Origin: Spirochaeta africana DSM 8902
GTDB lineage: Bacteria; Spirochaetota; Spirochaetia; DSM-27196; DSM-8902
Length of the DNA: 64,000 nt
Direction: 5' to 3'
NCBI RefSeq assembly: GCF_000242595.2
Contig: NC_017098.1
Span: 2,046,001-2,110,000 of the forward strand
Below are positions 1 to 51,520 of this stretch, piece by piece. The notes under the pieces were generated by a model that worked only from the letters and a program-made list of their open reading frames with translations, was not told the DNA's origin and searched no databases. The position numbers and the translations under genes are program-made. Position 1 is the stretch's first letter. Each line of letters opens with the position of its first letter.

Positions 1-2340
1 ATAAGCTGGAGCCCTGGCGGCACGCGCCCGGCAATGTGGGTAACAGTTACCGTATCGACTCCCCCGGTTGTTTGAATCCTGGCACGGTATCCTGCCCCGA
101 CCATGCCCTGTGGAAGCTCTCTGTCAAGAAGCTCGATCGCGGCACGCACCTCGATGGCTCCATAGAGCTGGCTATACACCGCGGCATTGCTGCTGTGCAC
201 CTGAATCCTGAAAGGGATCAACTGACCGGGCGCAGTCCCGGCCGGCACCGTTACGCCAAGCTGCAGGGCAGCATTCGGCACAGCTTCGGCGGGGGTGATC
301 GTAAGTTCGATGCCGGTCGGATTGGCGGCAGTGGCTGCGTCGGGAGCGCGTGTGGTCGTGCCAGGTGTGGCGCTGGCTTGCGACTGTGCGGTCTGCGGCA
401 GCTCGGCCTCTTCCGGCGCGGTCTGCAGCAGTTCTGCCCGCAGCTGTACCGGCTCGGCATAGCCTGTCAGCAGGTAGCGCGTCTCGCTGCTGCCACCGGC
501 AGCCACCTGGATGCGTTCCGGGCCCCTGAGTTGCAGGCCTCGGGTACGGATATCTATCCAGGGGCCCGGGACATGGCGGCCGTCCTGCGTCAGCAGCGCC
601 AGGCGACCGGGTGCAGTCGCGGTTGTTGTTTGCACCTCGATGCGGTGCTCGCAGTGGTGCTGGACAGGGTGCGGGTGGTCTGCTATGTGCAGGGTCTGGA
701 TGGTGTTCAGGCCGTGGCCGTAGATAGTAATTATCTGCCCGGGGTACACACTGTCGGGTTCCACCGCCTGTATAACCGGCAGAATCGGCGCATCGTTATT
801 GTCCGCATCGTCATCATCCTGATCCTCATCCCCGAGGATCGTCAACGGCAGCGACACGGCATCGGCTGCTGGTTTGGACACCAGAAGAAAGTACCGACCG
901 GGGACTGCCGACGGCGCCACCGGCAACTCGATGCGGGTTACCTTACCGGGAGCAAGCTCGGTCGCCACCGGATCAGTAAGCGGTACGTCTGTATCCTGCA
1001 GTACGATACTGACCGGTGCCATAGCGGTGTAGCCATGTCGGTCTTCTGCCCGGATATGAAGCACTGCCGTCCCCCCGGGGCGAGCATACAGATGGTTTGC
1101 CAGCAGCTGCAGATGATAATCAGGTCGATTGATCGCGACAGGGATCGCGGCAGAAACCCCCTGGCGGTTGCGTGCCCGCACCTCAAGCTGACCGGCAGAA
1201 ATTCCTGTGGGGATTTCAATCACCCGCTGCTGCTGATCCCCCGAGAGGATCGCCAGCTCATAGTGGTCCCCGCGGCTATCGGTCGCAACAATCTGCAGGG
1301 CTCCGCTCAGACCGGAGCCATACAGGGTTAGCCGGGAGGGCAGCTCTCCGGTCAGTTCGGTCGGGTCACACCCGTACAGCAGCGGCTGCGGATCGTGCAC
1401 AACGATCTCCAGATGCTCCACCACGCAGCGATCAACAGCATCATGATTCTCTACCCTGATCCCCAGTCGATAGATGCCGGGCAGTACATCCAGCCCTGCC
1501 TGCAGTACCAGCTCGACCGGGATCGTGTTGCCAGCCAGCATCCGGGCAGATGACAGATGGCCATTCAGCCCGGGGGTGGCAACAGCACACTGCACCGGAC
1601 CATCAACAGCGTCCAGACAGTCTTCGAGCCCGAGTATCCTGATCCCCCAGCTGCGGACATCGCCTTTGCCAGCAACAATCGGCAGCGGCAGGGAGATGCG
1701 CTCCCCTGCCGCAAGCATTACCACATCGGGTAATGCCAGCACAGGAGCCGCCTGACCACCGGTTTCAACACCGAGCACGGTATCGGTAAAAAGAAATCTT
1801 CCTGGTTCCGCTGCAGATATACTGTACGGGGCTATCCCGAAACGCAGCGGAACCCCAGCGGGAAATCCTCCCAGAGTGATCATCTGCAGATGTCCCAGGT
1901 CGATTTCACGAGGGACTGCCCCGGGGCGTCCGTAACGCAGCAGATATCCCGCCGTGCGCAGTTGATCTGCATGCCGGAAATGCAGGGTAACCGAGCCATT
2001 ACGGTTATCCACCACCATAAACTGCTCGACCGCTGCCAAGGTTTCGGCAGGCGGTGATGTAACCGTAACCCTGTCCGGAAAGACCCGACGACGTTCCGGG
2101 AGATCAGAGGCTGCAAACCCGACTGCCACCGACCAGACACCGGTTGGCAGCTGCTCGTGCGGCACCTCCAGCCGGAAGGAACCGCTGCCTACAGGTGAGG
2201 AGGCAATTACTCTGCCTGCCGTTGCATGCTCATTCTCGAGCAGATACAAGGTTACCTCTCCGGGGCGATCTACCGAACCCTCAGCCGACAGAATACTGCC
2301 ATGCTCGAGTACCCTCAGCCTGAGCTGCGGTAGTGTGGCA
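1..2340 (-). other. C-terminal array of FN3-, IPT/TIG- and He_PIG-like domains of the giant protein
   Basis: The order toward the C-terminus is: an Ig/FN3-like pair (about 2340-1780); an IPT/TIG-like module (DPTELTGELPSRLTLYGSGL, about 1370-1290); an Ig-like module; a second IPT/TIG-like module (VEPDSVYPGQIITIYGHGL, about 765-700) preceded by an acidic DEDQDDDDADNND linker that could bind Ca2+; a linker rich in Ala and Thr; and the He_PIG-like Ig domain at the window edge. These domains are typical of bacterial surface or adhesive proteins. Confidence 0.55.
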
Positions 2341-5300
2341 ACGGTATAGGCCTCGATTGCGTATCCCAGCGGATCCTGGAGATTTTCAACCTCCACCTGC
2401 CAGTTACCCGGTTCAGGTGCATGCACGATCAGGGCAGCACCCCAGTCATCATAGATCATCTCGACTGCAGGATGTCCCTCCTGCAGTCGCTCGCCACCGG
2501 GTGAAATTGCGCGTATAACCGGATTTCCTGCCGGATACGCCACCAGAAAAACGATCCGATCGAGCGGTGGTGACACGTCATTTCCGGTTGCGCTGTTCGC
2601 CAACGGCATCATCCCGGAGAATCTACCGGGCACACCTGAGCTGTGGCGCGGCAGCGACACCTGCGATGCGGCGACTGGTGGCGGCCGGTAGAGCTCATAC
2701 CGACTGACATTTCCCAGGGTGAACCTGCCGCGGCGATCGACAAACACCCCTGTCTCGCCCAGCAGCGGTACATCGGCATAGCCGCGAATTCCCTCGGCAC
2801 CATTGGTAAACATGCCTACCTCAGCGCCAACCTGAGCAAGCCAGATATTACTGCCGGGGATCCGCACCCGTACACCAAGAATGGTTTTGTCCAGCAACAG
2901 CCCGCGACGCAACCCGAACTGGACCCTCCCGGCACCGCTGGCGCGAACGACGCCCTGGTGGGTGTACACAAACACCTCTACCATCCCCCGTACATACACC
3001 AGTTCAACAATTACCGACCCGTAAAAACCATGCCCGGTCAGTGCCGCCAGAAGCTCTCCACGCACCAGACCACGCAGTACCGCTGCCTCGCCCTGCACCG
3101 CGATTCCCCAGTTGGTGATATCGATCCAGGTACTGACCGATGCATCTATCAGGTAGCCGCCGGTCTGATCAACCATCGATATGCCAGCCTCGATTCGGGT
3201 ACCGCTGTCAAACAGATACTGAACCGGTCCCGGCAGTTCGTCCGGAACCCCATAGGCCAATCCACCGCGCAGCCGGTTTAGGTACATCCCGGAATTCGCG
3301 ATCGGCAGGCCAAGGCCGAACACCTCGTAGGAGAAGAAGGCACGCTGCAGACCCCAGGGGTACATACTGCAGCGATCGACAAAAACGACCTGCGCCGCAA
3401 ACGCCCCGATACCCGGTACCACAGCCTCACCGCTGCCAGCTATCCGCATCTGACCGTCGTCCAGCATCAGCTCGACCATTACCTCGCGAAAACCCAGGCC
3501 ACCGCCGATGGAAAACTCCGGCAAGGCCAGCAAGCCGCCACTGTAGCCTACCCCTTCCGGAGAAATCCGGAAGCCGTACACCTCGAAACGTGCACCCCCC
3601 AGCAACGCAGGCAGTTCAATGCCGGCCGACCGAAACCCGATCAGCCGGTCAGCGGGATTCAAGCGAGGCTGGTCAAAATAGATCCGGAATCCGGCCATAT
3701 CAAAGCCGATACTCTGTACCTGTGCCTCACCGTAGAACTCTCCCGCTGCGGTAATACCGGCATTGCGCAGCTCCAGGCGACCGCGCTCAAACGGTTGTGG
3801 CAGTTCAAGCAGCAAACGCCGGATACTGATGCCATCGGCGTGAAAGGCAAGATCATGCAGTTCCGCAGAAAAACCGCCAACCTCGGCAAAGAGATGTGAC
3901 AGCCCCCCGCACACCGCCAGCAGCTGCCCATCCCAGGAAATATGCAGCTCATCCAGCACCACCGAGCCGATATCCAGGGGAAAATCAGGGGCAAAATGCA
4001 GCAGCCCGGCAGTATGCAGACCGTCACTCCCGATACGCAGGCTGGTTATCTCCGCTTCGACCCCGGCAAACAACGGCACACGCAGGCTCTCCGCAAGTGC
4101 CAGGTGGCATTCAAGCAGGCCCTTTTGACTGGACAGCAGAAAGCTTTCGATCTGCAGTGATCTGCCACCCAGCTCTCCCGGCAGGTGCGATGGCAGCAGA
4201 ATCAATCCCTCGAGGTCAGCAAGAAGTTCGCCTGAATGTATACCCGAACAGGCGGAAAATCCGATCCGGGCTTCAGACAGGCGCACACCGCCAAACAGCA
4301 CGGTTTCCGGGATATCGGCACCAGCGCGGAGTTCCCGAATCACCCCGCGGGAATCAATCTGAAATGATTCGATTTCGGCAGTAAACTCCGGTAGTCCGCT
4401 CCCGATTGATCCCGGCAGGATCAGCATGCCGGTAATGCCGAATACCGGCTGCCGTTCATCGTCAAGGATTGCTTCCAGCAGGAAATCCTGAATCTGCCAT
4501 TTCCCCAGTCCCTGCAGTGGCCAGGCAGCCGAACAGTCCAATGACTGCAGGTTACCACGCACATCGAAGGTCATGTCGGCAAGCTGAAGCTCCATCCCGC
4601 GCAGTCCATCGGGAAAGCTGTTTCCCAGCGCAGCCGCTCCCGAAACCTGCAGCTGTGGATCAGGCGCACCGAACAGACGGGCTGTCCCATGATGCAGTTC
4701 AATCCCGCCAGCCAGGATAGCACCCGGCTCAAGCTGCAGTTCGGCCTGCAGCGCCAGCAGACCCGCAGCGGAATATCGCAATTCCTGTAGCTCAAGCCTG
4801 GCGGAGGCAAGTGAGCCGGGAAACTCAGCCGGCAGGACTGCCATCCCGGCGACAGACAGCTCAGGTGAACCAGGATTTGCTTCCGTCACTGACAGTTCAA
4901 GCGAAGCCTGCTCCAGAGAAAGTGGCGGATACCCAAGCTGCAGATGCGGCATCTCGGCCAGTGCACGCAACCTGCGCAGCTGCCCATCGGACGGGGTCAG
5001 CATAAAATCCTGCAGATCGAGCCTGATCCCGGCGTCAGGGAATGGTGAGGAAAGCCGCAGTTCCCCCGCCCCTGTAAGCTGAACGGTCTCCCCCTGCAAA
5101 GCCACGCCAAGCCGGCCCTGCTGCAGATGGACACCGTTTCCCAATACTCCCGTAAGCCCGACAGCCTCGCCATGGAGTGCATGTAAATTCCCGACAGCAT
5201 CTACCCGGAGATAGTGAAGATCAAGAATTACATCCTGTAGCACCGGTGGCAGGGATTCATGGCCAAGCTGCAGATATCCCGAGAACCCGGCGGTACCATC

Positions 5301-8300
5301 GGCCTCGAACACCAGTTCGCGCAGCACCAGTTCCAGCCCGTGCTCACGGATCCGGAAGTCATGCAGGGCGATGCTGTCCATCTCCGGCTTTCCGGTGACC
5401 AGATCCAGCTGCAGCCCCTGCAGCACCACCCGCGGCGGACGCCAGCCACGCCCGATCAGTCCAGCCGGAAAGAGCAGCTGCACCAGCTCCGCATGGAGTA
5501 CCGGAGCAGTATCCTGATCAGACCGAAAGCGAATACCAAGATCATGGGTATACACCCGCCAATCTCCCCACACCGAAAAAACACTGCGGCCAGCAAGACA
5601 GGCATCGAGCGATTTCAGCTCGCCATCAAGACCGAGCTTCAGTTCATGCAGGTAGGCAGCACGACCAGCAAGTCCTGTGGGCAAGGACTGCGCCAGACGC
5701 AGGTGTCCCTGCAGGATGAGTTCATTATCGTGCACCGCAATCTTTTCCGGATATACCCTGCAGCCCAATAATTCAAACGACGCCCCGGGTTCAGGATGCA
5801 TCATGAAGCTTCCATCAAACCCGATACGTACATGACGAGCCGCGAGCTGTTGTCCCGAGAGCGCGCCCCCGGACGCCATCACCATCCGGTCAGCCTCCAG
5901 TCCGGCACCACTCAACCGCAGTCGCTGGATCACCAAACGGCCACCTCCCGGGAGGGCGACCTCAATCTCCGGAATAACCGCCGGGCTGCTGAGCCGTCCG
6001 TCAGGATGGAATATGGCGGGCGCAAATTCCAGCTCTATCCCGTTTAACAACCCGAGCCTCACGCGTATCCAGGCGGTCAGCCCTTGATTGGTCAAACCGG
6101 CTGCAACCAGCTCCACCTCATTGCCGCCCAGGGAAACGCCCTGCCCGAGATATCGCAGCTGTCCATCACTCTCCCCGGAGTCCAGCAGTACCGGAAAGGC
6201 CGGCAGCGCTACCCTGAGGTCGGCAAGGGGAATGACCACATCGGTTGCATGAAACAGAATGCGATCCTGTAGCAGCTCGACTGCATGCACCGTAACCGGG
6301 ATCCCCCCGTAGTGGAACTGCGGCTGCTCATCCGGGAACAGCAGATGCTGACTGGTCAGCACGCCCTGTGAAGTAAGAATCATGCTGTCCTGCGGCATCT
6401 CGAGCCTCCCAGACCCAAGACTCTGCGGCAGGCGCACCCTGCCGCTAAACAGGAATCCCAGTTCAGGATCTACCGACACACCCTGAACCTCCATCCGATA
6501 ACCGTTGCGCGAGATTAACCGCAGTCGGGGATCAACACTGCCCCGCCCCTGCAGTCGGGTTATTCGCAGCAAGGGAGCATACCCGCCACCGCTCGCGGAC
6601 AACAGCGGCGGTTGTTCAGCTAGACCGGGCTTCGCAGCCAGAACGGTCTGGGTAGGTGGTTGGGCAGATGGCTGGGCATCGGCCATCTGCTCCAGAAACA
6701 CTACCAGCTCGGGGATCACCAGGCAGGCCTCAGTGCCGGGATATTCTGCCAACGAATCAAGATAAACGACCAGATCGGTCAGGGTCAGCTTCGAATTACC
6801 CAGATCCACCGTGCCCACGGCAACCGGATACCCGTGCAGCAGCAGACTGCTTTCGGGCGTGCCCAGATGCAGTGAGGGGCCTGGCCGAGCTGCGAGAAAG
6901 CTCAACGTACCGGCAAACGGATCCGGAAGACTCAGGGTCACACGGCCCTGAACACCATCGCACCACAGTAGGGCCTGCTCCAGCATCAGTTCATGGCCAG
7001 CCATCAGCACCGGGATGTCCCCGGAAAGCATTCCAGGTTCCAGCATGCGCTTGGCGAAAAACAGCGGACCGGCAGTTGCCGCAAGCTCGGCCTGTGCGAA
7101 TACAGCACTGCCATCAGCCGCATAGCCTGCCGGAAATACCGCCAGACCACCCCGCAGCTGCAGTTGACCATCCTCCAGCTGCCAGCCATATGGATACAGA
7201 ATCGTGTCCCCCAACACCAGCGTTGCGTAAGGACCGACAGCGGTTACCGGCTGCATCCTGCCACCGGGTTCAACCGGTATCATATGAAAGATTACCGCTT
7301 CGGCCTCTGGCAACGGCCAGACCTCAGCTCGGCTGATCTGCAGCCCATACTGATCCAGCACCAGACCGCGGCACGCGAGGATACGTTGCCCATGCTGATC
7401 ATAGAGGGAAAAAACCGTGTCAGCCGCTGCGGGGGCGAGAATCGCTCCGGTAAACAGACATAATTCAAGGCCCCGCATGGGTATCGATCCAGTCGGGAAC
7501 CCGGGAGGAAGCCCCTGCAGTTCTGCCTTCCCTGCCATGAGTACCGGACTGTCACCATGGTATCCGACCGAAATATCCAGCAGATCCAGGGGAAATCCAT
7601 GCAGCTGCATACGCAACGGAGCAGCCTGTATCCCATCAGTTCCCCAGTCTATACCGTCATCGGTTAATCGCACCCCGGTCAGGAGCACCTCTGGAACGCC
7701 ATCACCCTCTGTGGAGAACGACAGCCGTACCGTATCACTCAACAGCCGCCCCTGCTCCAGTCGAAAATCATCCAGATACACTGCGCCGCCGTCCGCATCG
7801 TAGACTGCAACCGGCTCCAGATAAAAACCCTGTGCCCCACGCCACTGTCCGTCAATCGTGAATTCCGCGTTGCGGAACTCCGGTGTACGGGGCACCCATC
7901 CCTCGGGCAGCCTGAGATTACCGCGATACACCCGAAGCCGGTCTGACTGCAGCTCGACCTCACACAGTGCGTAGCGAACCCCCTCCATGACTACATACGG
8001 GGATTCATCCGCGGCAATCCAGCCACGATCCAGGTATGGTCCTGTCATGACCAGGCTATTATCGCCACCTGGAGGGTTCAGCAGAATACGCGGTACCGAC
8101 AGATTCATCGGCTGCAGCGCCGCCAGCTCGCTGTGCAGCTGGCTTGTGCCGCCCATAGCAACTGCATCACCCTCCAGCACCAGCCATCCGGGGGTGCCGA
8201 TCAGCCATCCCGGTCTGCCGTCGATTTGTGACAGCCTTAACCCGGTGTTGTCGCGGCTGCCGGGGACGCCAACGCTGCCGGGGCTCCCGGCCCCGTCGGG

Positions 8301-11300
8301 GCCGCCGAACCCTGCCGCCCAGGGATACCCCGGCATATCCGGCTCCAGCCGGGCAGACCGGGCAAAGCGTAGTGTCGGAGCGGTGGTCACCCACACGTCC
8401 CGAAAAACTGCGGTGCGGTCGTCCGGCCCGAGAATCACCTGTGCTGTGTCCAGCAAAAGTCCCCGATCCGGCTGCACGGTAATCCCGTGCGCCAGGACAT
8501 CCCAACTGCCTACCCGGATCAGCACCGGCTGCCGGGTATACCTCGCCATTACCGGCTCGGTCTGTCCAGTATTTAATTGAACCGAATCCAGCGCCAGCAG
8601 TCCCAACGGTCGGCCGTCCGGATACCGCGGCTTGCATGCAGCCGGCAGCCGCAGCATCGCCTCTTCCAGAACCTGCTGCTGTTCATCGTATATCCCCTGG
8701 ATCAGCACCCCGTCGCGCTCCCAGCGCCAGGGCACCCGCAAGGCGGTCAGCGGCGTTGCTCCTGTTCCGAAGCGTTGGGTGATCTCCCGGGCATTACCAG
8801 CCCGATCACGCAGCTGCAAGCGCAACTCATAGACACGGCCCTCTGTCAGCCCCGCGATACGCAGCCCCGGCCGATCATCAGCGCCTGTCGCGCCGGGTGG
8901 GCTTGTCTGGCCAGCCACGGCAGTCTGATCCCACTCACCGCTTCCGCTCATCAAATCCCAACTGCGTGGCGTAGGGTGCAGCACACCGTCGCGGGCGGCA
9001 TACAGACGCAGTTGCAGCGATTCCAGCCCTGAGGCCCGCTGCAGCTGCGCAGCGCCATCTGCCGTAAGGTGCCACCGCCCGGAGCAGTTTCCCGCTGCAC
9101 CATCAGGTGAATCCAGGCATTCACCATCCGCAGTCGCTGTTCCGCCCGGGGCAGCGGTATCCTCGACAGCCGTGCTGCGCAGTCTTTGCAGCGACATCCA
9201 GGCATCCGCCAGCAGTTCGGGATTATCCTGGAGCCAGGTGTCGGATACATCAGGCAGGATCAGCCTGACAGCAGACTCAGCACTCAGCAGCTCGATCTCC
9301 AGTCCGCCCGACTGACCTGCAGGCACGCCTACTTGCTGCCCGTCCGACTGGCCTGCAGGCACGCCAAATGGCAGCCCGTCTGGATGACTTTCCGGCAGTC
9401 CATTCGGCTGCCCGACGGTCTGCCCGTCCGTGCCTGTCCCGAATACAAGCTGCGGTCGGGAGCGATCAATCAGCAGCTCCCGCCAGGCAGCGCTGCGGTT
9501 ACCGGCATAATCCTCGGCCACCACCACGGCAGTGAATACCCCGAACCTGTCGGATTCCGGCTGATGATCCTCCAGCTGAACAGACAGGTGCATCCAGTCG
9601 CCGACTGGCGGAACGGCATACCACTGCCCATCCGGTCGTACCGGTAAGGCCTCGGCTACCGCCGGGAGGGTGCCGGTCTCTGCGGGGAGGGCTTCAGCAA
9701 GGCACACCGCCGCAAGCTGCTCTGGATCCAGTACGAAATCCATCGCCGGCCCGGCACAATCGATGCGTACATAATACCTACCCACCCCGGCTGCGTCGGC
9801 CGGGCGATTCCAGGAAAGATCGATCACCGGGCAGTTCTCCCACCGCCCGGCTTCACCATGACTGCGCGAAAACAGCACCAGCCCCTCGGGGGGTGAGGTG
9901 TCCACCACAAACCGATAGCGAGCCGGGGGGCCAACCAGCCCGTTGCGGCCAACAGCCCTCACCTGCAGGCGGTAATGTTCGCCTGCCAGGCTGTCCGGCA
10001 GATCATACAGGGTCAACTGTGCAGTGCCATCTTCCGCATCAATCGACGCGCCGCGGATTTCCTCAATCGCTGTAAAGCCCCCGCTGGAGGCCACCCCTCG
10101 CTCCAGCTGATATAGAAAACCCACCGGCAGGCTCACACTCCCTGAATTACCGAAGCCCTCTCTGCCGGGATACAGATCAAACCACCCGTTGCTGAATGGC
10201 ACAGCAACCTCAGCGCGCATCCCCTCGGGAAACACACTACTGCTGACATGCGGAACAAGCGGCAGCCCGCCGTCAACCAGAATCACCCGCTCATGGACAG
10301 GCCCCGCTACACCGGCAGCATCCACTGTACGCAGCTGGATCAGCCACTCCCCATCTCCCGGAAACTCCAGTTCGAAGGTTAGCGGGGTATCTGCAGCCAC
10401 ACCCGCAGCTGCCGGATGCCACTGCCACTGCAGTGTATCCATGGCCTGCCCGTGCGCCGCCCATCGATACTGCAGGCCGAGCAGGGACAGAACAGCAGCG
10501 CCCCCCTGTGGATATTCCGGGACTCGCGGTTCACCCCACCCCTCAGGATCAACCACAAGCAGCACCCGGTTCGCCATCGCGGCTCCAAAGTCCGCGGGAA
10601 TCTCGGCTCCGTCCTGCCCGAACAACCTGACCCCGGCAATACTCCCCGATTTCCCGCCGTACAGCACCACCCTCTGCAACTCACCGCGGTTTCCGGCGTG
10701 GTCATACGTATACACGACCAGCGGCACCTCTGTGCCGACCGCCAGCAAGTCCGCCCCGTCTGACAGCGCCTGTTCGGGTATCGCAGCAAACCGCCAGGCG
10801 GCAGCCTCGGGCAGCAGCATCCGCAGGGGCGACCACACGTCTTCCCCGGGAGTGATCAATGGATATCGGCCATCCCCGATTTGTACACCGGATGTTTCGG
10901 CCAGACCCGAGATTGCATCGCTGGCTTCAAATTGTGTTACCCAGACTCCCCCAGCCGCGTGGTCGTACCAGGGATACACCTCTGCACACAGCTGCGGCGG
11001 ACTGCGGTCTATCCGGATTACGCTCACCGCCTGCGCTGCAGCCCCAGCTCTACTTCGCACCTGCATGGAAATCTCGTACACACCGTCCGGATAGAGATCG
11101 AGGTCGAGTAATCCCCCGACTGGCTCCCCGGCAGTTTCGCTGTCGCTCAACCAGGCAGTCCAGCTCTCGGGATCGACACCTGAAAGCCCGGGGATAGCAC
11201 ACCCGCGCAACACAACGCCGTAATCTCGTATCCAGGCATGCTCTGCCAACAGGAAACCGGCGGCATTCCGCAGCTCCAGGGTGAGGTCCGGAGCTTCTCG

Positions 11301-13928
11301 ATCTATCCGGAACAGGCGGTGGGCGAGGCTGGTGTTCCCCGCCTGATCGACAGCCGAGACGACCAGCAGATATATCCCGGATGCCGACTGCTGCAGTTCT
11401 GCACCGGATGCAGTGCTGCCGGCGGCTATCGGCTGCCACAGCTCCGATGCCGGGAGCCCGTCTGCCAGCTGCACCTCCGGAGAACCCGCGGGCTCACCCT
11501 CGGCACCTTCGTGCTGCAGGCGATACCAGGTATATCGCAGATCGGCAATCCCGGACTCGTCATCAACAGCCAGTACCCGGCAGCGTGCCGGATCAGGCTG
11601 CCAGTCTGGCCCGGTATCCGACAGCAGCTCCAGCCGCGGTGGTGTGCGATCTATCCGGAGCGGAATATTCAGCCAAGCAGTATTGCCCAGGGTATCGTAC
11701 AGCCGAATCTGCAGCTCATGCAGGCCGGTCTCAAGCTCCTCCGGCAGCCCGGTGCTCAGCAGCCCGTCAGCCAGTTCGGCAGACAGCAGGGTTCCCCGGT
11801 AACGAACCTCTACCCCGGCGACCCCGCTGCCGGCATCCGCAACCCGGAAGCGGAGGTGGCGACCATCGCTCCAGTCCAGAGCCGAGGCCGGATCCACATA
11901 CCCCAACGTCGGCGGTGTGGTGTCGATTGCGAATGGTCGATACCCGACGCTGTCCCAGGATGCCTGAGACCAGTTGCCTGCCCGGTCCTGTACCCGAAAG
12001 CCGACCCGGTAGCTGCCATCCTCCAGCGCATCGGTCTCGAGCTCGAGCCACAGCCCGCTGCCTTCGGCAACCACGTCCCCGGCAGCGCCGACTACCCGCC
12101 ACTGTGCGGTATCGGGGGCGACCCCCGATGCGGCATCGCTGAACTCAGCGTGAAACTCGATCATCCCCTGCAGGTAGACCACCTCCGCCAGCCTGCCACT
12201 GCGGTTGCCTGCCTCATACCATATGTGTTCAAGGACCGGTCCGATCGTGTCGCGATACAGATATACCGTCTGTTCCTGGCGATTGCCGGCATTATCCCGC
12301 ACCTGCACTACGGCCTCGGTAACCCCCTCACGCAGAACCCGCAGTATCGGCTGCTCGTCGCCAAATCGCCGCCAGTCGCTATCATCGCTACGCCAGCGCC
12401 AGGAGCCCGGGTCTACACCGCTGCCAGGGTCCCTACCCGGAAGCACCGGATCCTCTGCCAGCCATGTAATCGCCAGCCCCTCGCTGCAGCTGTTCCAAGG
12501 AGCCTCCGCTGCTGCCATCGGCTCCAGACTGAACCCATCACCGTGCATGGTATCCTTATCATACCCGGCGATACCCAGCATGGGTGGATCGTAATCTATC
12601 CCCACCAGGATCATCACCTCACTACTGTTGCCGACCCGATCATGGGCTACACAGCGTAATTCATGGCGCCCCGGCCGGGTTACCCGAACCATGGGGTCTG
12701 AGGCGAGCAGCTCATCGCCAAGCATCCAGGCAACACTGTCGAGTCCGGACTGGTTATCCTCGACATCCGCAGTCAGCTCCGGGGGGGTATGAAACCAGCG
12801 AATTTCCCGGGGTTCAGTCCAGGGCAGGGTTATCACCGGGGGTTGATCATCAATACGGAAGAATCCGGCCTTTTCATGGCGATTACCGGCAGCATCCTCC
12901 ACCTGCATGGCTACCAGGAAATCGCCGCCCTCGGTCAGCCGCAGCTCATACTCACCCTCACGATCCGAGATCGCGGCCACCGCCTCGCTGTAGCCTCCCG
13001 CTGCATCACGTCGAAACACCCGCAGATACCACGCCATCACCCCGGATGCATAGCCGTCCCGAGGCGGATCCTGCGGATCAAGCCGCAGCAGATAGCCGGA
13101 TTCCGGCAACGGCAGCCAGGGCGAATACTCATCATCCGACAGGAACGGTACCGTGCCGGTATATCCCAGAACCGGGTCGAGGGTATCTACCGCAAAGCTC
13201 AACTCCAGTTCGCTGCGATTGGATACGCGATCGGTTGCGGTAAACACCACATGGTAGCTGCCATCTGCAAGCGGACCGGTGTCTTCGCCGCTGCTGTCGT
13301 GCAGCAGTTGCCGGTTGCCGTCTTCATCAACCCGGTAAATGCGATGACGCACCTCTGCCAGCCCGGACAATCCGTCCGCAGCAGCAACCCGCAACCGCAC
13401 CGGATACGCCAACACGGCACCATTGTGGGGAACCTGCCCCACCCAGTTGAGCTGTGGCGGGGTGTTGTCGCGTACAAAAGAAAAGGAGATGGTACCCAGG
13501 CGTTCACGGTTGCGTTTCAGCAGTCGATCACGCCAGCCTGAAACTGTAATGGTGTGACGATCGTGCCTCAGGGTGCGGGTACGATTGATCGCGGTATTCC
13601 CGCTGGTGTTGCTACGGTTGGCAAACCGCGAGCGGCTGCGCCCGTCCGGTTCATCATAGGCCTCTATATAATAGTTGGTACCGGCCCAGTTATGCTCGGT
13701 TTTCCGGGCCCGGATGGCGAGCTCCTCGCCACGAAAATACAGGGTACTGCCCTGTACATGCCGTCGCGAGGCAGGGTGATCTACCTGGATGGCGTACCAC
13801 AGATCTCCACTGCTGTGCTGGCGACTGGTGAGGGTTGTCCAGCCGGACAATGGCAGAGCACATACAAAAAGGGTGAGAAGCAGAGGCGGGAACACGGGCA
13901 ACCCGAGCCCGCCGGTTCTCCGGGGCAT
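1..13928 (-). CDS. Giant exported multidomain protein, at least 4,642 aa (3' end outside window)
   Basis: Reading the minus strand in the frame whose codons occupy plus-strand triplets beginning at multiples of 3, I find no stop from 13928 to the left edge, so the gene is truncated by the window. The start is ATG 13928 (or GTG 13931), sharing a base with the stop of the upstream gene (TGATG), with GAGG 8-11 bases upstream. The N-terminus (MPRRTGG, then PLLLTLFVCALPLSG) looks like a signal peptide. Next come about twelve Ig-like repeats (residues about 150-1500) with DxxPP boundaries and DxAGN cores; a repetitive beta-strand region (about 1740-3530); a Gly-rich cap (about 3450-3650); and C-terminal beta domains including two IPT/TIG-like modules and, at the edge, a He_PIG-like Ig domain (LPQGMVGAGY, then GRVPPGLQL). 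No catalytic motif is seen. A cell-surface or periplasmic role is inference. The conflicting plus-strand frames over this region are shadows. Confidence 0.9.
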   Translation of the reverse strand, partial: MPRRTGGLGLPVFPPLLLTLFVCALPLSGWTTLTSRQHSSGDLWYAIQVDHPASRRHVQGSTLYFRGEELAIRARKTEHNWAGTNYYIEAYDEPDGRSRSRFANRSNTSGNTAINRTRTLRHDRHTITVSGWRDRLLKRNRERLGTISFSFVRDNTPPQLNWVGQVPHNGAVLAYPVRLRVAAADGLSGLAEVRHRIYRVDEDGNRQLLHDSSGEDTGPLADGSYHVVFTATDRVSNRSELELSFAVDTLDPVLGYTGTVPFLSDDEYSPWLPLPESGYLLRLDPQDPPRDGYASGVMAWYLRVFRRDAAGGYSEAVAAISDREGEYELRLTEGGDFLVAMQVEDAAGNRHEKAGFFRIDDQPPVITLPWTEPREIRWFHTPPELTADVEDNQSGLDSVAWMLGDELLASDPMVRVTRPGRHELRCVAHDRVGNSSEVMILVGIDYDPPMLGIAGYDKDTMHGDGFSLEPMAAAEAPWNSCSEGLAITWLAEDPVLPGRDPGSGVDPGSWRWRSDDSDWRRFGDEQPILRVLREGVTEAVVQVRDNAGNRQEQTVYLYRDTIGPVLEHIWYEAGNRSGRLAEVVYLQGMIEFHAEFSDAASGVAPDTAQWRVVGAAGDVVAEGSGLWLELETDALEDGSYRVGFRVQDRAGNWSQASWDSVGYRPFAIDTTPPTLGYVDPASALDWSDGRHLRFRVADAGSGVAGVEVRYRGTLLSAELADGLLSTGLPEELETGLHELQIRLYDTLGNTAWLNIPLRIDRTPPRLELLSDTGPDWQPDPARCRVLAVDDESGIADLRYTWYRLQHEGAEGEPAGSPEVQLADGLPASELWQPIAAGSTASGAELQQSASGIYLLVVSAVDQAGNTSLAHRLFRIDREAPDLTLELRNAAGFLLAEHAWIRDYGVVLRGCAIPGLSGVDPESWTAWLSDSETAGEPVGGLLDLDLYPDGVYEISMQVRSRAGAAAQAVSVIRIDRSPPQLCAEVYPWYDHAAGGVWVTQFEASDAISGLAETSGVQIGDGRYPLITPGEDVWSPLRMLLPEAAAWRFAAIPEQALSDGADLLAVGTEVPLVVYTYDHAGNRGELQRVVLYGGKSGSIAGVRLFGQDGAEIPADFGAAMANRVLLVVDPEGWGEPRVPEYPQGGAAVLSLLGLQYRWAAHGQAMDTLQWQWHPAAAGVAADTPLTFELEFPGDGEWLIQLRTVDAAGVAGPVHERVILVDGGLPLVPHVSSSVFPEGMRAEVAVPFSNGWFDLYPGREGFGNSGSVSLPVGFLYQLERGVASSGGFTAIEEIRGASIDAEDGTAQLTLYDLPDSLAGEHYRLQVRAVGRNGLVGPPARYRFVVDTSPPEGLVLFSRSHGEAGRWENCPVIDLSWNRPADAAGVGRYYVRIDCAGPAMDFVLDPEQLAAVCLAEALPAETGTLPAVAEALPVRPDGQWYAVPPVGDWMHLSVQLEDHQPESDRFGVFTAVVVAEDYAGNRSAAWRELLIDRSRPQLVFGTGTDGQTVGQPNGLPESHPDGLPFGVPAGQSDGQQVGVPAGQSGGLEIELLSAESAVRLILPDVSDTWLQDNPELLADAWMSLQRLRSTAVEDTAAPGGTATADGECLDSPDGAAGNCSGRWHLTADGAAQLQRASGLESLQLRLYAARDGVLHPTPRSWDLMSGSGEWDQTAVAGQTSPPGATGADDRPGLRIAGLTEGRVYELRLQLRDRAGNAREITQRFGTGATPLTALRVPWRWERDGVLIQGIYDEQQQVLEEAMLRLPAACKPRYPDGRPLGLLALDSVQLNTGQTEPVMARYTRQPVLIRVGSWDVLAHGITVQPDRGLLLDTAQVILGPDDRTAVFRDVWVTTAPTLRFARSARLEPDMPGYPWAAGFGGPDGAGSPGSVGVPGSRDNTGLRLSQIDGRPGWLIGTPGWLVLEGDAVAMGGTSQLHSELAALQPMNLSVPRILLNPPGGDNSLVMTGPYLDRGWIAADESPYVVMEGVRYALCEVELQSDRLRVYRGNLRLPEGWVPRTPEFRNAEFTIDGQWRGAQGFYLEPVAVYDADGGAVYLDDFRLEQGRLLSDTVRLSFSTEGDGVPEVLLTGVRLTDDGIDWGTDGIQAAPLRMQLHGFPLDLLDISVGYHGDSPVLMAGKAELQGLPPGFPTGSIPMRGLELCLFTGAILAPAAADTVFSLYDQHGQRILACRGLVLDQYGLQISRAEVWPLPEAEAVIFHMIPVEPGGRMQPVTAVGPYATLVLGDTILYPYGWQLEDGQLQLRGGLAVFPAGYAADGSAVFAQAELAATAGPLFFAKRMLEPGMLSGDIPVLMAGHELMLEQALLWCDGVQGRVTLSLPDPFAGTLSFLAARPGPSLHLGTPESSLLLHGYPVAVGTVDLGNSKLTLTDLVVYLDSLAEYPGTEACLVIPELVVFLEQMADAQPSAQPPTQTVLAAKPGLAEQPPLLSASGGGYAPLLRITRLQGRGSVDPRLRLISRNGYRMEVQGVSVDPELGFLFSGRVRLPQSLGSGRLEMPQDSMILTSQGVLTSQHLLFPDEQPQFHYGGIPVTVHAVELLQDRILFHATDVVIPLADLRVALPAFPVLLDSGESDGQLRYLGQGVSLGGNEVELVAAGLTNQGLTAWIRVRLGLLNGIELEFAPAIFHPDGRLSSPAVIPEIEVALPGGGRLVIQRLRLSGAGLEADRMVMASGGALSGQQLAARHVRIGFDGSFMMHPEPGASFELLGCRVYPEKIAVHDNELILQGHLRLAQSLPTGLAGRAAYLHELKLGLDGELKSLDACLAGRSVFSVWGDWRVYTHDLGIRFRSDQDTAPVLHAELVQLLFPAGLIGRGWRPPRVVLQGLQLDLVTGKPEMDSIALHDFRIREHGLELVLRELVFEADGTAGFSGYLQLGHESLPPVLQDVILDLHYLRVDAVGNLHALHGEAVGLTGVLGNGVHLQQGRLGVALQGETVQLTGAGELRLSSPFPDAGIRLDLQDFMLTPSDGQLRRLRALAEMPHLQLGYPPLSLEQASLELSVTEANPGSPELSVAGMAVLPAEFPGSLASARLELQELRYSAAGLLALQAELQLEPGAILAGGIELHHGTARLFGAPDPQLQVSGAAALGNSFPDGLRGMELQLADMTFDVRGNLQSLDCSAAWPLQGLGKWQIQDFLLEAILDDERQPVFGITGMLILPGSIGSGLPEFTAEIESFQIDSRGVIRELRAGADIPETVLFGGVRLSEARIGFSACSGIHSGELLADLEGLILLPSHLPGELGGRSLQIESFLLSSQKGLLECHLALAESLRVPLFAGVEAEITSLRIGSDGLHTAGLLHFAPDFPLDIGSVVLDELHISWDGQLLAVCGGLSHLFAEVGGFSAELHDLAFHADGISIRRLLLELPQPFERGRLELRNAGITAAGEFYGEAQVQSIGFDMAGFRIYFDQPRLNPADRLIGFRSAGIELPALLGGARFEVYGFRISPEGVGYSGGLLALPEFSIGGGLGFREVMVELMLDDGQMRIAGSGEAVVPGIGAFAAQVVFVDRCSMYPWGLQRAFFSYEVFGLGLPIANSGMYLNRLRGGLAYGVPDELPGPVQYLFDSGTRIEAGISMVDQTGGYLIDASVSTWIDITNWGIAVQGEAAVLRGLVRGELLAALTGHGFYGSVIVELVYVRGMVEVFVYTHQGVVRASGAGRVQFGLRRGLLLDKTILGVRVRIPGSNIWLAQVGAEVGMFTNGAEGIRGYADVPLLGETGVFVDRRGRFTLGNVSRYELYRPPPVAASQVSLPRHSSGVPGRFSGMMPLANSATGNDVSPPLDRIVFLVAYPAGNPVIRAISPGGERLQEGHPAVEMIYDDWGAALIVHAPEPGNWQVEVENLQDPLGYAIEAYTVATLPQLRLRVLEHGSILSAEGSVDRPGEVTLYLLENEHATAGRVIASSPVGSGSFRLEVPHEQLPTGVWSVAVGFAASDLPERRRVFPDRVTVTSPPAETLAAVEQFMVVDNRNGSVTLHFRHADQLRTAGYLLRYGRPGAVPREIDLGHLQMITLGGFPAGVPLRFGIAPYSISAAEPGRFLFTDTVLGVETGGQAAPVLALPDVVMLAAGERISLPLPIVAGKGDVRSWGIRILGLEDCLDAVDGPVQCAVATPGLNGHLSSARMLAGNTIPVELVLQAGLDVLPGIYRLGIRVENHDAVDRCVVEHLEIVVHDPQPLLYGCDPTELTGELPSRLTLYGSGLSGALQIVATDSRGDHYELAILSGDQQQRVIEIPTGISAGQLEVRARNRQGVSAAIPVAINRPDYHLQLLANHLYARPGGTAVLHIRAEDRHGYTAMAPVSIVLQDTDVPLTDPVATELAPGKVTRIELPVAPSAVPGRYFLLVSKPAADAVSLPLTILGDEDQDDDDADNNDAPILPVIQAVEPDSVYPGQIITIYGHGLNTIQTLHIADHPHPVQHHCEHRIEVQTTTATAPGRLALLTQDGRHVPGPWIDIRTRGLQLRGPERIQVAAGGSSETRYLLTGYAEPVQLRAELLQTAPEEAELPQTAQSQASATPGTTTRAPDAATAANPTGIELTITPAEAVPNAALQLGVTVPAGTAPGQLIPFRIQVHSSNAAVYSQLYGAIEVRAAIELLDRELPQGMVGAGYRARIQTTGGVDTVTVTHIAGRVPPGLQL
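2340..3500 (-). other. Gly-rich cap and PPC-like domain of the giant protein
   Basis: Downstream of the beta-repeat region the protein reads NSGMYLNRLRGGLAYG, then VVRASGAGRVQFGLRRG, FTNGAEGIRGYADV and LLGETGVFVDRRG (about 3450-2740). This is a less repetitive, glycine- and aromatic-rich stretch that could be the closing domain of the beta region. After a short linker comes a module with AISPGGERL, MIYDDWGAALIV and PEPGNWQVEVENLQ (about 2590-2400), whose NWxVxVxN pattern resembles pre-peptidase C-terminal (PPC) beta domains. The family assignment is tentative. Confidence 0.45.
3500..8700 (-). repeat. Repetitive beta-strand region of the giant protein with about 70-residue period
   Basis: Roughly 1,700 residues of alternating hydrophobic and polar residues, with a recurring motif of the form L-x-x-L-x-(L/I/F)-x-x-x-G-x-(L/I), often preceded by LP and a Gly-Ser turn. 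Examples are LHELKLGLDGEL (near 5640), LRELVFEADG (5315), LHYLRVDAVGNL (5215), LQDFMLTPSDGQL (5005), LQELRYSAAGLL (4790), LADMTFDVRGNL (4575), IESFQIDSRGVI (4380), IESFLLSSQKGLL (4155), ITSLRIGSDG (4045), LDELHISWDGQL (3955) and LHDLAFHADG (3855). Between 5215 and 4155 the spacing is near 210 bases, about 70 residues. I do not recognise the family. Confidence 0.7.
9303..9432 (-). repeat. 36-bp tandem repeat, about 3.5 copies, coding for a Gly/Pro/Gln linker
   Basis: Units start near 9303, 9339, 9375 and 9411. The first two share CTGCAGGCACGCC and the later ones are diverged. In the giant protein they encode 12-residue units of the type GVPAGQSDGQQV between the last Ig-like repeat and the next domain. 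Because the period is a multiple of three, copy-number change would keep the frame. Confidence 0.7.
9450..13475 (-). repeat. Array of about 12 Ig-like repeats inside the giant protein
   Basis: Each unit ends in a D-x-x-P-P type junction followed by a hydrophobic strand. Junctions read near 13465 (RDNTPPQL), 13185 (VDTLDP), 12850 (IDDQPP), 12595 (IDYDPP), 12250 (RDTIGP), 11920 (IDTTPP), 11655 (IDRTPP), 11305 (IDREAP), 11010 (IDRSPP), 10275 (VDGGLP), 9900 (VDTSPP) and 9465 (IDRSRP). Most units contain a VxDxAGN-like turn, as in bacterial Ig-like or cadherin-like surface repeats. Unit length varies from about 85 to 245 residues. The coordinates of individual units are approximate. Confidence 0.75.
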
Positions 13929-15367
13929 CACGGCATTACCCTCACGCGATACAGCTGGTGGGCATCCTGGAAATACCTGTCTCCATGATCCCCCCCAACA
14001 ACAGTGAGATCCAGCCGTGCCGCAGCCAACCACAGTGGTTCGGCCGCCGGCGCAAACCCTTCATCATCCAGCAGCAGCTGTCTGTCCGCATCCACCAGCC
14101 AGACCCGGCCCTCACGGCTATGATACCCCATGGCGGACGGGGAGCTGTACAGGGGCAGCCAGTCCGCATTGAACATCAGCACCTGCAGATTGTTCGGCCC
14201 CTCCAGGAGCAGCAGACCATCCGGGGTAAACCGGACAGCGACCCCATCCCCGACTGGGAAATGCGTCGGCGACGTATCAGGAAAATACACACCGCTGCTG
14301 CTGACTTCCTGACAAATCAACAGAACCTGCTCGGAACAGTAGTGCAGCATCGCGACACCATAGGGTGTGGGAACGGCGCCAAGAAATCCCTGGTCAGGCA
14401 AGGCAACCGGCAGCCGCTGCCAGCCGCTGCAGTCCTGCTTCCAGCCAGACAGCCGCTCGCCGTCGCCGCTCCACAGCACCGGCACATCGGGATTTCCGGC
14501 ATATCCGTACCCCGACATCTGCCATCTACTCATGCTGCTGTCCGGCAGCATAATCGCCGCGGCTCCCCCATCAGAACCCACAACTATATCAACCAGCCCA
14601 TGACTGCCGGCAACCAGAACCCCAACCTGCCAGGCGGCAGATTCCTCATCATCTGTCAGGGGATGATACAGCTGAAGCCAGGGCTGCTGCTCGCTCACCC
14701 CTGTCGGCAGGTACACCGTCCAGGATGTCACGGTTCGCAGATCAACTCCCCCACCCAGTTCGATCCACCGGATACCGGCGCTGCCCGTTTCCGTACGACA
14801 CAGAGCGATCGCCGTCAGGCCGTAATCCCCATGAAAATGCAGCTGGTAATCGGCCTGTCTCTGACCATCACCATGCGGCTGCAGCCCGGTCATCACCTGC
14901 CGCAGCACCATTGGTTTGTCAGTACCGGCACTACCCAGCTGCCGGTACTCGATCGAACCTGCCCAGAGGTTTCTGGTTTGATCTGCCCCGGCAGCGGTAC
15001 ACAGCACCAGCCACTGCCCCGACCCGACGGCCTGCAGCGAAAGCCGGGCGGCAGCGCCTGGCGGAACCGGCTCGTCCCCCCATTCCACCACTACCTCCTG
15101 CCACTCCAGGCGATCATTCTGCAATGCCGCCTGCAGATTACCATCTGGCAACGTTTGCAGCAGCAGCCTGCTGCCCGGTGTTTCCAGCACCACTCGTTCA
15201 ACTGCAGCTGCAAGATTCCCCGGCAGAGGAACCGGATCAAAAACATACCTGCCGTATGAGGTCACCGTCAGGCTGCAGATACACCCCAGGCACGCTGCCA
15301 ACAGCAGCCGTCGATTCCACCACAGCACTGGGCTCAGGCCAGTCCAGAAAAATACGGCAGTATTCAT
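13928..15367 (-). CDS. Exported protein of unknown function, partner of the giant protein
   Basis: The protein is 479 aa from ATG 15367, which has a strong GGAGG about five bases upstream; an in-frame GTG at 15379 lies inside that site and is less likely. An N-terminal hydrophobic segment (LLLAACLGCICSLTVTS, about residues 20-37) is a signal peptide or anchor. The remainder is all-beta looking, with repeated W-x-L/V and G-x-G-x turns (PVLWSGDG, VWLVDADRQLLLDD). This would fit a beta-propeller or lectin-like fold, but no family is recognised. Its stop overlaps the start of the giant gene by one base, so the two are almost certainly co-translated and probably act together. Confidence 0.85.
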   Translation of the reverse strand: MNTAVFFWTGLSPVLWWNRRLLLAACLGCICSLTVTSYGRYVFDPVPLPGNLAAAVERVVLETPGSRLLLQTLPDGNLQAALQNDRLEWQEVVVEWGDEPVPPGAAARLSLQAVGSGQWLVLCTAAGADQTRNLWAGSIEYRQLGSAGTDKPMVLRQVMTGLQPHGDGQRQADYQLHFHGDYGLTAIALCRTETGSAGIRWIELGGGVDLRTVTSWTVYLPTGVSEQQPWLQLYHPLTDDEESAAWQVGVLVAGSHGLVDIVVGSDGGAAAIMLPDSSMSRWQMSGYGYAGNPDVPVLWSGDGERLSGWKQDCSGWQRLPVALPDQGFLGAVPTPYGVAMLHYCSEQVLLICQEVSSSGVYFPDTSPTHFPVGDGVAVRFTPDGLLLLEGPNNLQVLMFNADWLPLYSSPSAMGYHSREGRVWLVDADRQLLLDDEGFAPAAEPLWLAAARLDLTVVGGDHGDRYFQDAHQLYRVRVMP

Positions 15368-15485
15368 ACCCCCTCCCACAAGCTACTACCGATTATTCCG
15401 TGGTAAATCTTCAACTCGACATGCATCATATGGAGGTTTTCCGGGAATTCTGGTAGACTCCAAGGCAATCGCTCAAGGAGTCTGT

Positions 15486-31477: not shown

Positions 31478-31512
31478 TTGATTTTCCCGGGAGACAACCT
31501 ATACTATGAATA
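31478..31512 (+). promoter_or_regulatory. Promoter abutting the REC-GGDEF-EAL gene (leaderless arrangement)
   Basis: TTGATT (31478-31483), 16 bases, then TATACT (31500-31505). The expected transcript start is the A of ATG 31512, which selects that codon over ATG 31506. No ribosome site lies at usable spacing. Confidence 0.6.
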
Positions 31513-33596
31513 TGTTACGCCAACTTTCCAGCAGCATCGATACCAAAGCTCGTCTCATGATTGTCGAAGACGAGAAGATCATCGCGCTTGACCTGCAGCG
31601 CCGGCTGGAAAAATACGGGTATGAGGTTACCGGGCTTTCGAACGACGGCAGTGAAGCCGTTACCATGGCCGAAAAGGATCAGCCGGATCTGATCCTGATG
31701 GACATCATGCTCAATGGTGAGACTGACGGGGTACAGGCGGCAACCCGTATCTTTCATGACTATCAGATACCGATTATCTTCTTGACCGCCTATGCAGACC
31801 AGCGCACCCTGGAGCGCGCCAAGGAAGCCCAGCCATTCGGATACGTGCTCAAGCCCTTCAAGGAACGCGAGCTGTACAGCACCATAGACATCGCCTTGTA
31901 TAAAAGCGGGGTCGACAAGGCGCTGAAAAAGCATGACCGCTGGCTGAGCGCGGTGCTGCATAATATCGGTGATGGCATTATTGCCACCAGATCCGATGGT
32001 TCGGTGGAGTATATGAATCCCACGGCCGAACGCATGACCGGTTGGCAGTTCAATGAAAATGCCAAAAGTACAGTTCGCCTTACCGACATCCTGCCCCTGC
32101 ATGATTCCCAGACTCATCTGAATGTTCCTATACCGGAGCCTGATTCGATCCCGGTCGACAGCCCGGTTTTCTTTGAGAACCTGCTGCTGATTAACAAGGC
32201 CGGCGCCCACATCCACATCGAGGGCTCCTTCGCCGGTATCTATGATGAAAGCAAGGTGTGCGAAGGCCTGGTGGTGGCATTCCAGGATGTCACCACCATC
32301 AAGACCATGTCCGACACCATCATGTATCAGGCCAGCCACGACAGCCTGACCGGATTGATCAACCGGGACGAGTTTTTTGCGCAGCTCAAACGCACCATAA
32401 GCGAGCACAACGGCAACACCCCGGATCACCTGCTGTATCTGGATATCGATCAGTTCAAGGTAGTAAACGATCTCTGCGGGCATCTGGCAGGCGATGAACT
32501 GCTGCGCCGAATCTCCAAGGACATCCGTGCCCATTTACCTCCCGGCAGTGCCTTCGCCCGCCTGGGCGGGGATGAGTTCGGCATACTGGTCCAGAATCTC
32601 CCCAACGACGAACTCTCGGGATTTTGCGAACAGATGCTGTCGCTGGTACAGCGGAATTTTACCTGGAAGCACAACGTGATCAGCATCTCGGTCAGCATCG
32701 GGGTGGTAACCCTGGATCAGGCAACCCTTGATCCCTATGCCGTGCTGGCTGCTGCCGATGATGCTACCTATCTGGCCAAGGAATCCGGAGGCAACACCTA
32801 CCGCTTCTACCGCACCGCCGATTTTTCTTTTCTGAAACGACGCGGCGAGATGCAGTGGGTGGCCCGGCTGACCAAATCTCTGGAGAACGACCGGTTTGTG
32901 CTGTTCGAGCAGCCAATCGTACACCTTTCGGACAGCAGTATTGCCAAGCGCGAAATCCTGCTGCGGCTGCGTGATGATGAGGATGAGCTGATCAGCCCCC
33001 AGGTATTCATTCCGGCCGCCGAACGCTACAACCTGATGCCAGCCATAGACCGCTGGGTAATCCGCAACACCTTTCGCTTTATTGCCGAAAGCGAATCGAC
33101 CATCAAGTACTCCATTAACCTTTCCGGGGCCTCGATTGCCGACGAGAATCTGAGCGGGTATGTGACCGCACAGCTCGAGGAGCATGCGATCAATCCCGAG
33201 CAGATCTGCTTCGAGATTACCGAGACTACTGCAATAGAAAACCTGTCACGGGCTATTGACTTCATAACCCGGATGCGTGATCTGGGCGCAACCTTTGCGC
33301 TGGACGATTTTGGCAGCGGCTTTTCCAGCTTTACCTACCTGCGCAATCTGCCGGTACAGTACCTGAAGCTGGACGGCTCTTACGTGAAGGATATTCTGTC
33401 TGACAAGGTCAGCATGCAGATGGTCGATTCGATCAATGACATCGGTCATGTGCTGGGAATGCAGACCATTGCCGAGTATGTACGATCAGCCGAGCTGATG
33501 CGGGCACTGCGCGAGATGGGCGTGGATATGGGTCAGGGCTACGAAATACAGAAGCCTGCCCCGCTGGCCGACAGTATTGCGATAGATCGCCGGTAA
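31512..33596 (+). CDS. Response regulator with PAS, GGDEF and EAL domains
   Basis: The protein is 694 aa from ATG 31512 (696 if ATG 31506 is used). Domains in order: receiver (IVEDE acidic pair, phospho-Asp in LILMDIMLNG, Lys in GYVLKPFKERE; about 15-130), PAS (about 140-265, NIGDGIIATRSDGSVEYMNPTAERM), GGDEF (LGGDEFGIL intact; DxD at LDIDQFK), and EAL (about 445-690). In the EAL domain the signature is REILLRL instead of EAL, but the catalytic Glu, the Asn of YSINLSG, the Glu of FEITET, the DDFGSG pair, the Lys of LKLDGS and the Glu of TIAEYV remain. It should make and/or degrade cyclic di-GMP in response to phosphorelay and a PAS ligand. Confidence 0.9.
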   Translation: MLRQLSSSIDTKARLMIVEDEKIIALDLQRRLEKYGYEVTGLSNDGSEAVTMAEKDQPDLILMDIMLNGETDGVQAATRIFHDYQIPIIFLTAYADQRTLERAKEAQPFGYVLKPFKERELYSTIDIALYKSGVDKALKKHDRWLSAVLHNIGDGIIATRSDGSVEYMNPTAERMTGWQFNENAKSTVRLTDILPLHDSQTHLNVPIPEPDSIPVDSPVFFENLLLINKAGAHIHIEGSFAGIYDESKVCEGLVVAFQDVTTIKTMSDTIMYQASHDSLTGLINRDEFFAQLKRTISEHNGNTPDHLLYLDIDQFKVVNDLCGHLAGDELLRRISKDIRAHLPPGSAFARLGGDEFGILVQNLPNDELSGFCEQMLSLVQRNFTWKHNVISISVSIGVVTLDQATLDPYAVLAAADDATYLAKESGGNTYRFYRTADFSFLKRRGEMQWVARLTKSLENDRFVLFEQPIVHLSDSSIAKREILLRLRDDEDELISPQVFIPAAERYNLMPAIDRWVIRNTFRFIAESESTIKYSINLSGASIADENLSGYVTAQLEEHAINPEQICFEITETTAIENLSRAIDFITRMRDLGATFALDDFGSGFSSFTYLRNLPVQYLKLDGSYVKDILSDKVSMQMVDSINDIGHVLGMQTIAEYVRSAELMRALREMGVDMGQGYEIQKPAPLADSIAIDRR

Positions 33597-51431: not shown

Positions 51432-51520
51432 TCTCCGGCACACAGGAACTTTCTTACAGTTTTTCCCTGTTTCCTGAATAATCACCGCCGAATAACCGGT
51501 AGTACATGGTGGAGGGAGTA

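Follow-up and report, generated by a model that had tools for sequence, protein, structure and literature searches.

A repeating, predicted amphipathic beta-sheet module in a giant spirochaete protein and its genomic association with type II secretion

The window analysed here, a stretch of 64,000 nucleotides from Spirochaeta africana DSM 8902 (positions 2,046,001 to 2,110,000 of NC_017098.1, the single contig of 3,285,855 bases that makes up this genome), carries on its minus strand the larger part of a giant gene whose central region encodes a beta-sheet module with units of about 70 residues. Our preferred interpretation, to which we would give about an even chance of being right, is that this is the central module of a giant exported surface protein or exoprotein, for which the type II secretion system (T2SS) is the most likely route out, and that the module forms a groove-like hydrophobic sheet. 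The original prediction for this DNA had placed an unrecognised beta-strand module with a period of about 70 residues at window positions 3500 to 8700, and that description has held apart from the extent of the regular units: no model in Pfam or NCBIfam covers the module, the PDB sequence set contains no match to it, and its predicted structure is all-beta.

The flagged region lies inside an open reading frame that spans window positions 3 to 14033 and extends beyond the edge of the window. When contiguous pieces of the genome are joined, the giant protein comprises 5,760 codons, from an ATG at 13928 to a stop at genome position C1:2042646, without interruption; a fused or frameshifted gene was ruled out, as no stop occurs inside the frame. 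Residue numbers refer to the window translation (P0001), in which residue 36 is the start methionine. From the N-terminus onwards, the parts of the gene within the window are as follows.

3 to 13928, minus strand: giant gene, beginning with the ATG at 13928-13926, codons 1-4642 of 5,760 within the window (open reading frame list, translations and genome pieces).
13836 to 13928, minus strand: hydrophobic segment at the N-terminus, probably a Sec signal peptide (hydropathy within the first 60 residues peaks at 2.03).
8934 to 13835, minus strand: N-terminal immunoglobulin (Ig)-like domains, Big_13 and related (Pfam Big_13 E 2.6e-25, Big_3_2 E 1.2e-5).
3411 to 8699, minus strand: beta-sheet module, the flagged feature (unit profile with decoys, hydrophobic periodicity, homologues).
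3657 to 5234, minus strand: confidently modelled region, predicted amphipathic hairpin sheet with about four strands per unit (AlphaFold2 pLDDT 83.9, pTM 0.62; face analysis).
2664 to 3410, minus strand: conserved beta domain that follows immediately on the units (mean pairwise identity 43%; barrel-like in a low-confidence model).
3 to 2636, minus strand: C-terminal part inside the window, with one TIG domain (E 1.8e-4).

The decisive evidence for the repeat is a unit profile built from relatives only, that is, trained without the protein tested. Eight units were found with it in the giant protein at an i-Evalue < 0.01, none in the reversed protein and none in any of 20 block shuffles. Regular units start at window positions 5225, 5021, 4799, 4592, 4382, 4163 and 3965, giving a period of 66-74 residues (successive spacings of 68, 74, 69, 70, 73 and 66 residues, or 198-222 bases), in good agreement with the spacing near 210 bases that had been proposed between 5215 and 4155. 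An iterated profile marks 11-16 units in each of seven relatives (i-Evalue < 0.01), with units lying about 62 residues apart in the module's N-terminal half and about 71 in its C-terminal half; this profile was built on the same sequences that it scored, and the relatives-only profile with its decoys serves as its control.

Clear periodic units occupy window positions ~3400-5230, with isolated units up to ~6500. The upstream half of the module (residues 1780-2480) shows strand-like hydrophobic periodicity only (z 4.2 against shuffles), so that a repeat running through all of 3500-8700 is borne out in its downstream part and reduces to hydrophobic periodicity upstream. The motif originally written for the unit, L-x-x-L-x-h-x-x-x-G-x-L, does not mark the repeat, as a loose regular expression of it gave 22 matches with no excess over 500 shuffles (16.4 +/- 4.4). 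Ungapped autocorrelation is likewise weak (strongest at lag 14 with z 4.5, and z 2.3 at lag 70). In composition, the module is rich in leucine (17%) and poor in lysine (0.6%), in keeping with the hydrophobic face described below.

Two AlphaFold models, each based on six sequences, describe the fold: a long model of 1,006 residues and a repeat-only model of P0001 residues 2934-3459 (526 residues). The latter reached a pLDDT of 83.9 and a pTM of 0.62 and contains 33 strands, mostly of 7-17 residues and many of them joined by turns of 2-5 residues, while the long model (mean pLDDT 69, pTM 0.41) is acceptable in the repeats but poor over its last 300 residues. Strands of this length joined by such tight turns form hairpins and not the short parallel strands in regular coils of a beta-solenoid, and the long solenoid that had been considered is therefore ruled out for the modelled region. 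According to these models, the repeat region is a hairpin meander forming an amphipathic sheet. When strands are pooled and values averaged over the family, hydrophobicity is seen to alternate within strands (lag 1 -0.50, lag 2 +0.29), and the lag difference of 0.79 compares with a maximum of 0.36 in 1,000 permutations. Across tight hairpins hydrophobicity matches in register (r +0.35, n = 102) and is reversed one step off (r -0.26 and -0.19, n = 92 and 93). Single strands tested one at a time show the alternation weakly (4 of 56 at p < 0.05). The pooled alternation and the in-register agreement across hairpins together indicate one hydrophobic face along the predicted sheet; the opposite face would be polar.

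The giant protein belongs to a family of 4,300-6,400 residues. Alignment-based searches matched 21 of 394 Spirochaetia genomes, 16 of them over nearly all of the 1,229 profile positions (18 places), and within this sample 14 genera of the class include a full-length member. The short or doubtful matches in G097, G130, G136, G150 and G267, five of the 21 matching genomes, were excluded from the co-occurrence count described below; the G150 match was taken as spurious, its open reading frame resembling a TonB-dependent receptor. In a sample of the phylum, 9 of 296 genomes matched, all from the same class. A single-sequence scan of genome contigs found no relative and an alignment scan of the same kind of data found five loci, in which the named relatives are metagenome-assembled genomes of Spirochaetales, Spirochaetaceae and Spirochaetes. 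Viral contigs gave no match, nor did plasmids scanned for the conserved domain, and in the literature, judged by title or start of abstract, no account of such a giant spirochaete protein was found. Several Spirochaetia genomes also encode short, secreted-looking relatives of about 490-740 residues that match the module (L038, L039, L040, L045 and L046), next to ankyrin, ABC-transporter and other genes.

Farther along the giant protein, outside the window, lies an OmpL47-type domain, and according to Pfam the relatives also carry TIG, fn3, He_PIG, PQQ_2 (PQQ-like propeller) and PD40 domains around the module. By hydropathy, an internal transmembrane-helix candidate is absent in 15 of the 17 members checked, with marginal windows in the giant protein of S. 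africana and in P0007. Most complete members have a hydrophobic N-terminal segment, which by hydropathy could be either a signal peptide or an anchor; it is missing from the called reading frames of P0003, G107a and the cut P0007, perhaps because the start is misplaced or cut off.

A strict association links the family to T2SS. The major pseudopilin gene gspG (PF08334) is present in all 16 genomes with a full-length giant compared with 91 of 394 overall (hypergeometric P 2.2e-11), and counted by genus in 14 of 14 compared with 44 of 132 (P 4e-8). It occurs in two of the five genomes excluded for short matches. The TonB plug family, used as a control, was found in 10 of the 16 compared with 171 of 394 (P 0.09). 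In the six genomes with both genes on a single long contig, the shortest distance between giant gene and gspG is 0.1, 4.4, 5.7, 7.0, 14.5 and 43 kb, a proximity with a combined P of 6e-6 when a correction factor for multiple copies is included. A further gap of 7.7 kb, in G308, stands outside this test, the contig there being 49,870 bases long; nine genomes have the two genes on different contigs. Pfam confirmed gspE, gspD and a prepilin peptidase gene beside the giant gene of G264, and gspG next to the giant genes of G393, G285 and G282. In S. africana, the T2SS genes are found in the window itself.

52021 to 54231, plus strand: gspD, secretin (PF00263, E 2.6e-26).
54228 to 55730, plus strand: gspE, ATPase (PF00437, E 1.5e-118).
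55397 to 56932, plus strand: gspF (PF00482, E 6e-39); start codon uncertain, as the listed reading frame overlaps gspE.
56929 to 57324, plus strand: gspG, major pseudopilin (PF08334, E 2.2e-22).
61397 to 61822, plus strand: prepilin peptidase, gspO (PF01478, E 4.1e-7).

A small CarboxypepD_reg protein is encoded directly upstream of gspD (51506-52024), and a gene with the same domain was also seen close upstream of the giant gene of G308, near gspG.

The lack of an internal transmembrane-helix candidate in most members checked, the Ig, FN3, TIG and propeller-type domains on both sides of the module and the strict T2SS link together lead us to infer an exported protein. The giant protein would enter the periplasm by Sec, with probable cleavage of its signal peptide, and would then be exported, presumably via the T2SS whose genes lie 38 kb away within this window. 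Its final place would be outside the cell or on the outer surface, where Ig-like, FN3/TIG and propeller-type domains would flank a long, stiff sheet in one chain. In this sheet, the four-strand units of about 70 residues would stack side by side to create one continuous hydrophobic and one continuous polar face, and the hydrophobic face presumably bends to form a groove in which lipid or some other apolar partner would be held.

Several observations weigh against this interpretation. The co-occurrence counts are not fully corrected for shared ancestry or genome size, gspG is also present in 75 genomes without a full-length giant, the second giant genes of G282 and G107 stand well away from gspG, and the least close of the giant-gspG pairs, at 43 kb, is that of S. 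africana itself. In addition, it is unusual for a T2SS client to reach about 600 kDa. On the structural side, the repeat-only model had no Foldseek match in the PDB at E <= 0.001, the best being LptD at E 0.018; its best VIA alignment (Z 8.6 at a root-mean-square deviation of 22.7 A) is at a level common by chance. Alternatively, the amphipathic sheet may be covered by a partner sheet, without any lipid.

Other long amphipathic sheets offer the closest parallels to such a groove. LptD, an antiparallel amphipathic sheet leading to a barrel (with LptA, the beta-taco), was the best Foldseek match of both models, at E 2e-7 for the long one, but with poor global superposition (TM-scores of 0.1-0.2, deviations of 34-65 A) and no sequence match, and the giant differs from it as a multidomain chain with Ig and TIG domains. 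The beta-belt of apolipoprotein B-100 is a comparably long amphipathic sheet (Foldseek E 1.7e-4 with the long model; VIA Z 5.2 over 321 residues with the repeats), but it belongs to a eukaryotic lipoprotein, no sequence similarity was found, and lipid binding by the giant is putative. Both matches probably reflect shared local geometry and not homology. In the same way, the single viral fold match of the repeat-only model, a phage tail fibre (E 1.7e-5, TM 0.17), is best read as shared hairpin geometry. A link between a protein of beta-groove type and T2SS has a precedent in the AsmA-like GspN, which passages of PMC12802150 describe as part of the machinery and likely located in the inner membrane. 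Unlike GspN, the giant looks like a client and not a part of the machine, and the GspN family (PF01203) had no match in 10 giant-bearing genomes.

The strongest of the alternatives, which we consider unlikely but take seriously, is a stiff surface fibre or adhesin in which the sheet is a lipid-free spacer and its hydrophobic face is hidden by self-association or by folding back. The company of Ig, FN3 and TIG domains and the T2SS link would fit such a fibre, and single-layer sheets like that of Borrelia OspA, a free-standing hairpin sheet, are among the weak structure matches (VIA Z 5.1-5.7). However, the central sheet of OspA is polar on both sides, while one face is hydrophobic here, and an OspA-type sheet with two polar faces does not describe this module. 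The sheet of the giant is also hundreds of residues longer, and the protein is not a lipoprotein by inspection. A purely structural role is further at odds with the domain that follows the units, which is better conserved than they are (43% mean pairwise identity for residues 3542-3723 compared with 28% for the repeats), and the protein therefore probably does more than serve as a rod.

This domain (window 2664-3410) is the best conserved part of the aligned region, the repeat units run straight into it, and no entry of Pfam, NCBIfam or the PDB sequence set accounts for it. In VIA, model residues 715-993 align to outer-membrane barrels (FimD, LptD, porins and VDAC) with Z 9-11.5, in a part where the model has low confidence; for that reason, a barrel identity of the domain stays a lead. 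If the lead were followed furthest, the groove of the Spirochaetia-specific giants, at most about 1,700 residues long, would lead to a barrel of outer-membrane or surface type, and these proteins would act as T2SS-exported, outward-reaching extracellular or surface lipid conduits or carriers instead of membrane bridges, a proposal that we regard as rather improbable. A protein anchored in the outer membrane, in which the domain is a transmembrane beta-barrel fed with apolar cargo by the sheet, much as the N-terminal domain of LptD feeds its barrel, appears improbable too: it would explain the barrel alignments, the top rank of LptD for the long model and the direct transition from units to domain, but hairpin-rich chains readily model as barrels, TM-scores are 0.1-0.2, model confidence is low in the domain, and the chain goes on for about 2,000 residues past it.

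Least probable is the periplasmic lipid bridge, an AsmA/TamB-type repeating beta-groove (RBG) carrying phospholipid between the membranes, which the amphipathic groove-like sheet and the weak resemblance to LptD, TamAB, ApoB and viral chorein proteins would favour and which the lack of a clear anchor helix inside the chain, the flanking Ig- and TIG-type domains and the separate TamB genes speak against. Pfam models of TamB/AsmA type found no match at E <= 10 in six members, and no homology emerged when the profile of the module was compared with nine TamB sequences from spirochaetes (hhalign, probabilities of 5.2% and 0.2%). AsmA, TamB and VPS13 do share repeated strands and one hydrophobic face with the module (TamAB at Z 4.3), but RBG units have five strands plus a loop where the unit of the giant has about four strands and 70 residues, and the giant is probably exported and not membrane-anchored. 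Chains of LptA and VPS13 did not figure among the VIA matches listed, which speaks neither for nor against a resemblance. A TamB gene was identified with Pfam in 9 of 10 giant-bearing genomes checked, S. africana having two. As these genomes carry their own TamB and the profile probability is about 5%, the giant appears on this evidence to be neither TamB nor a replacement for it. Of the groove proposed in the original prediction, the long amphipathic sheet survives and a kinship with AsmA/TamB finds no support; the periplasm-spanning function drawn from it fits poorly with the lack of a clear transmembrane helix inside the chain, the flanking domains and the T2SS link, from which a location outside the periplasm would follow. 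The two TamB genes of S. africana are at G000:C1:1769802-1770602 and 2556232-2557500, one of them with an E of 7e-55, far stronger than the other nine matches in the ten genomes. Passages of PMC4494059 that discuss TamB in spirochaetes, S. africana included, cluster an S. africana TamB with Bacteroidetes, and no giant protein is mentioned in them.

Of the genes directly next to the giant, the upstream one in S. africana lies within the window.

13928 to 15379, minus strand: upstream gene, up to 483 residues, with an N-terminal hydrophobic segment (open reading frame list); it overlaps the start of the giant gene by one base.

Including this case, a same-strand gene of 438-583 residues, propeller-like by eye, is found directly upstream of the giant in 9 of 15 regions, with no Pfam match in the two tested (S. 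africana and G087). Directly downstream, 8 of the 15 regions have a same-strand gene of 904-1,888 residues. The S. africana copy (L002:3809-6649, outside the window) encodes 946 residues with an N-terminal hydrophobic segment, stands in an operon-like arrangement with the giant and has no Pfam match. When the C-terminal 400 residues of six of the eight downstream proteins were aligned (G079 and G090, whose ends looked different, were left out), the Cys of an Asp-Cys pair and a later His were invariant in all six; by eye these resemble the residues of NlpC/P60-type cysteine hydrolases. The downstream gene is missing in G107b, G264 and G393 and not shown by G087 and L019, and the regions of G162 and G194 are cut. 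Elsewhere in the window, positions 31506-33596 encode a response regulator with PAS, GGDEF and EAL domains.

Most exoproteins of free-living spirochaetes are poorly understood, and what the T2SS does in this group is, as far as we are aware, largely open. The fixed pairing of one giant protein with T2SS makes this question directly testable. If the hydrophobic face of the module does hold lipid, beta-groove lipid carriers would extend from the periplasm to an exported protein.

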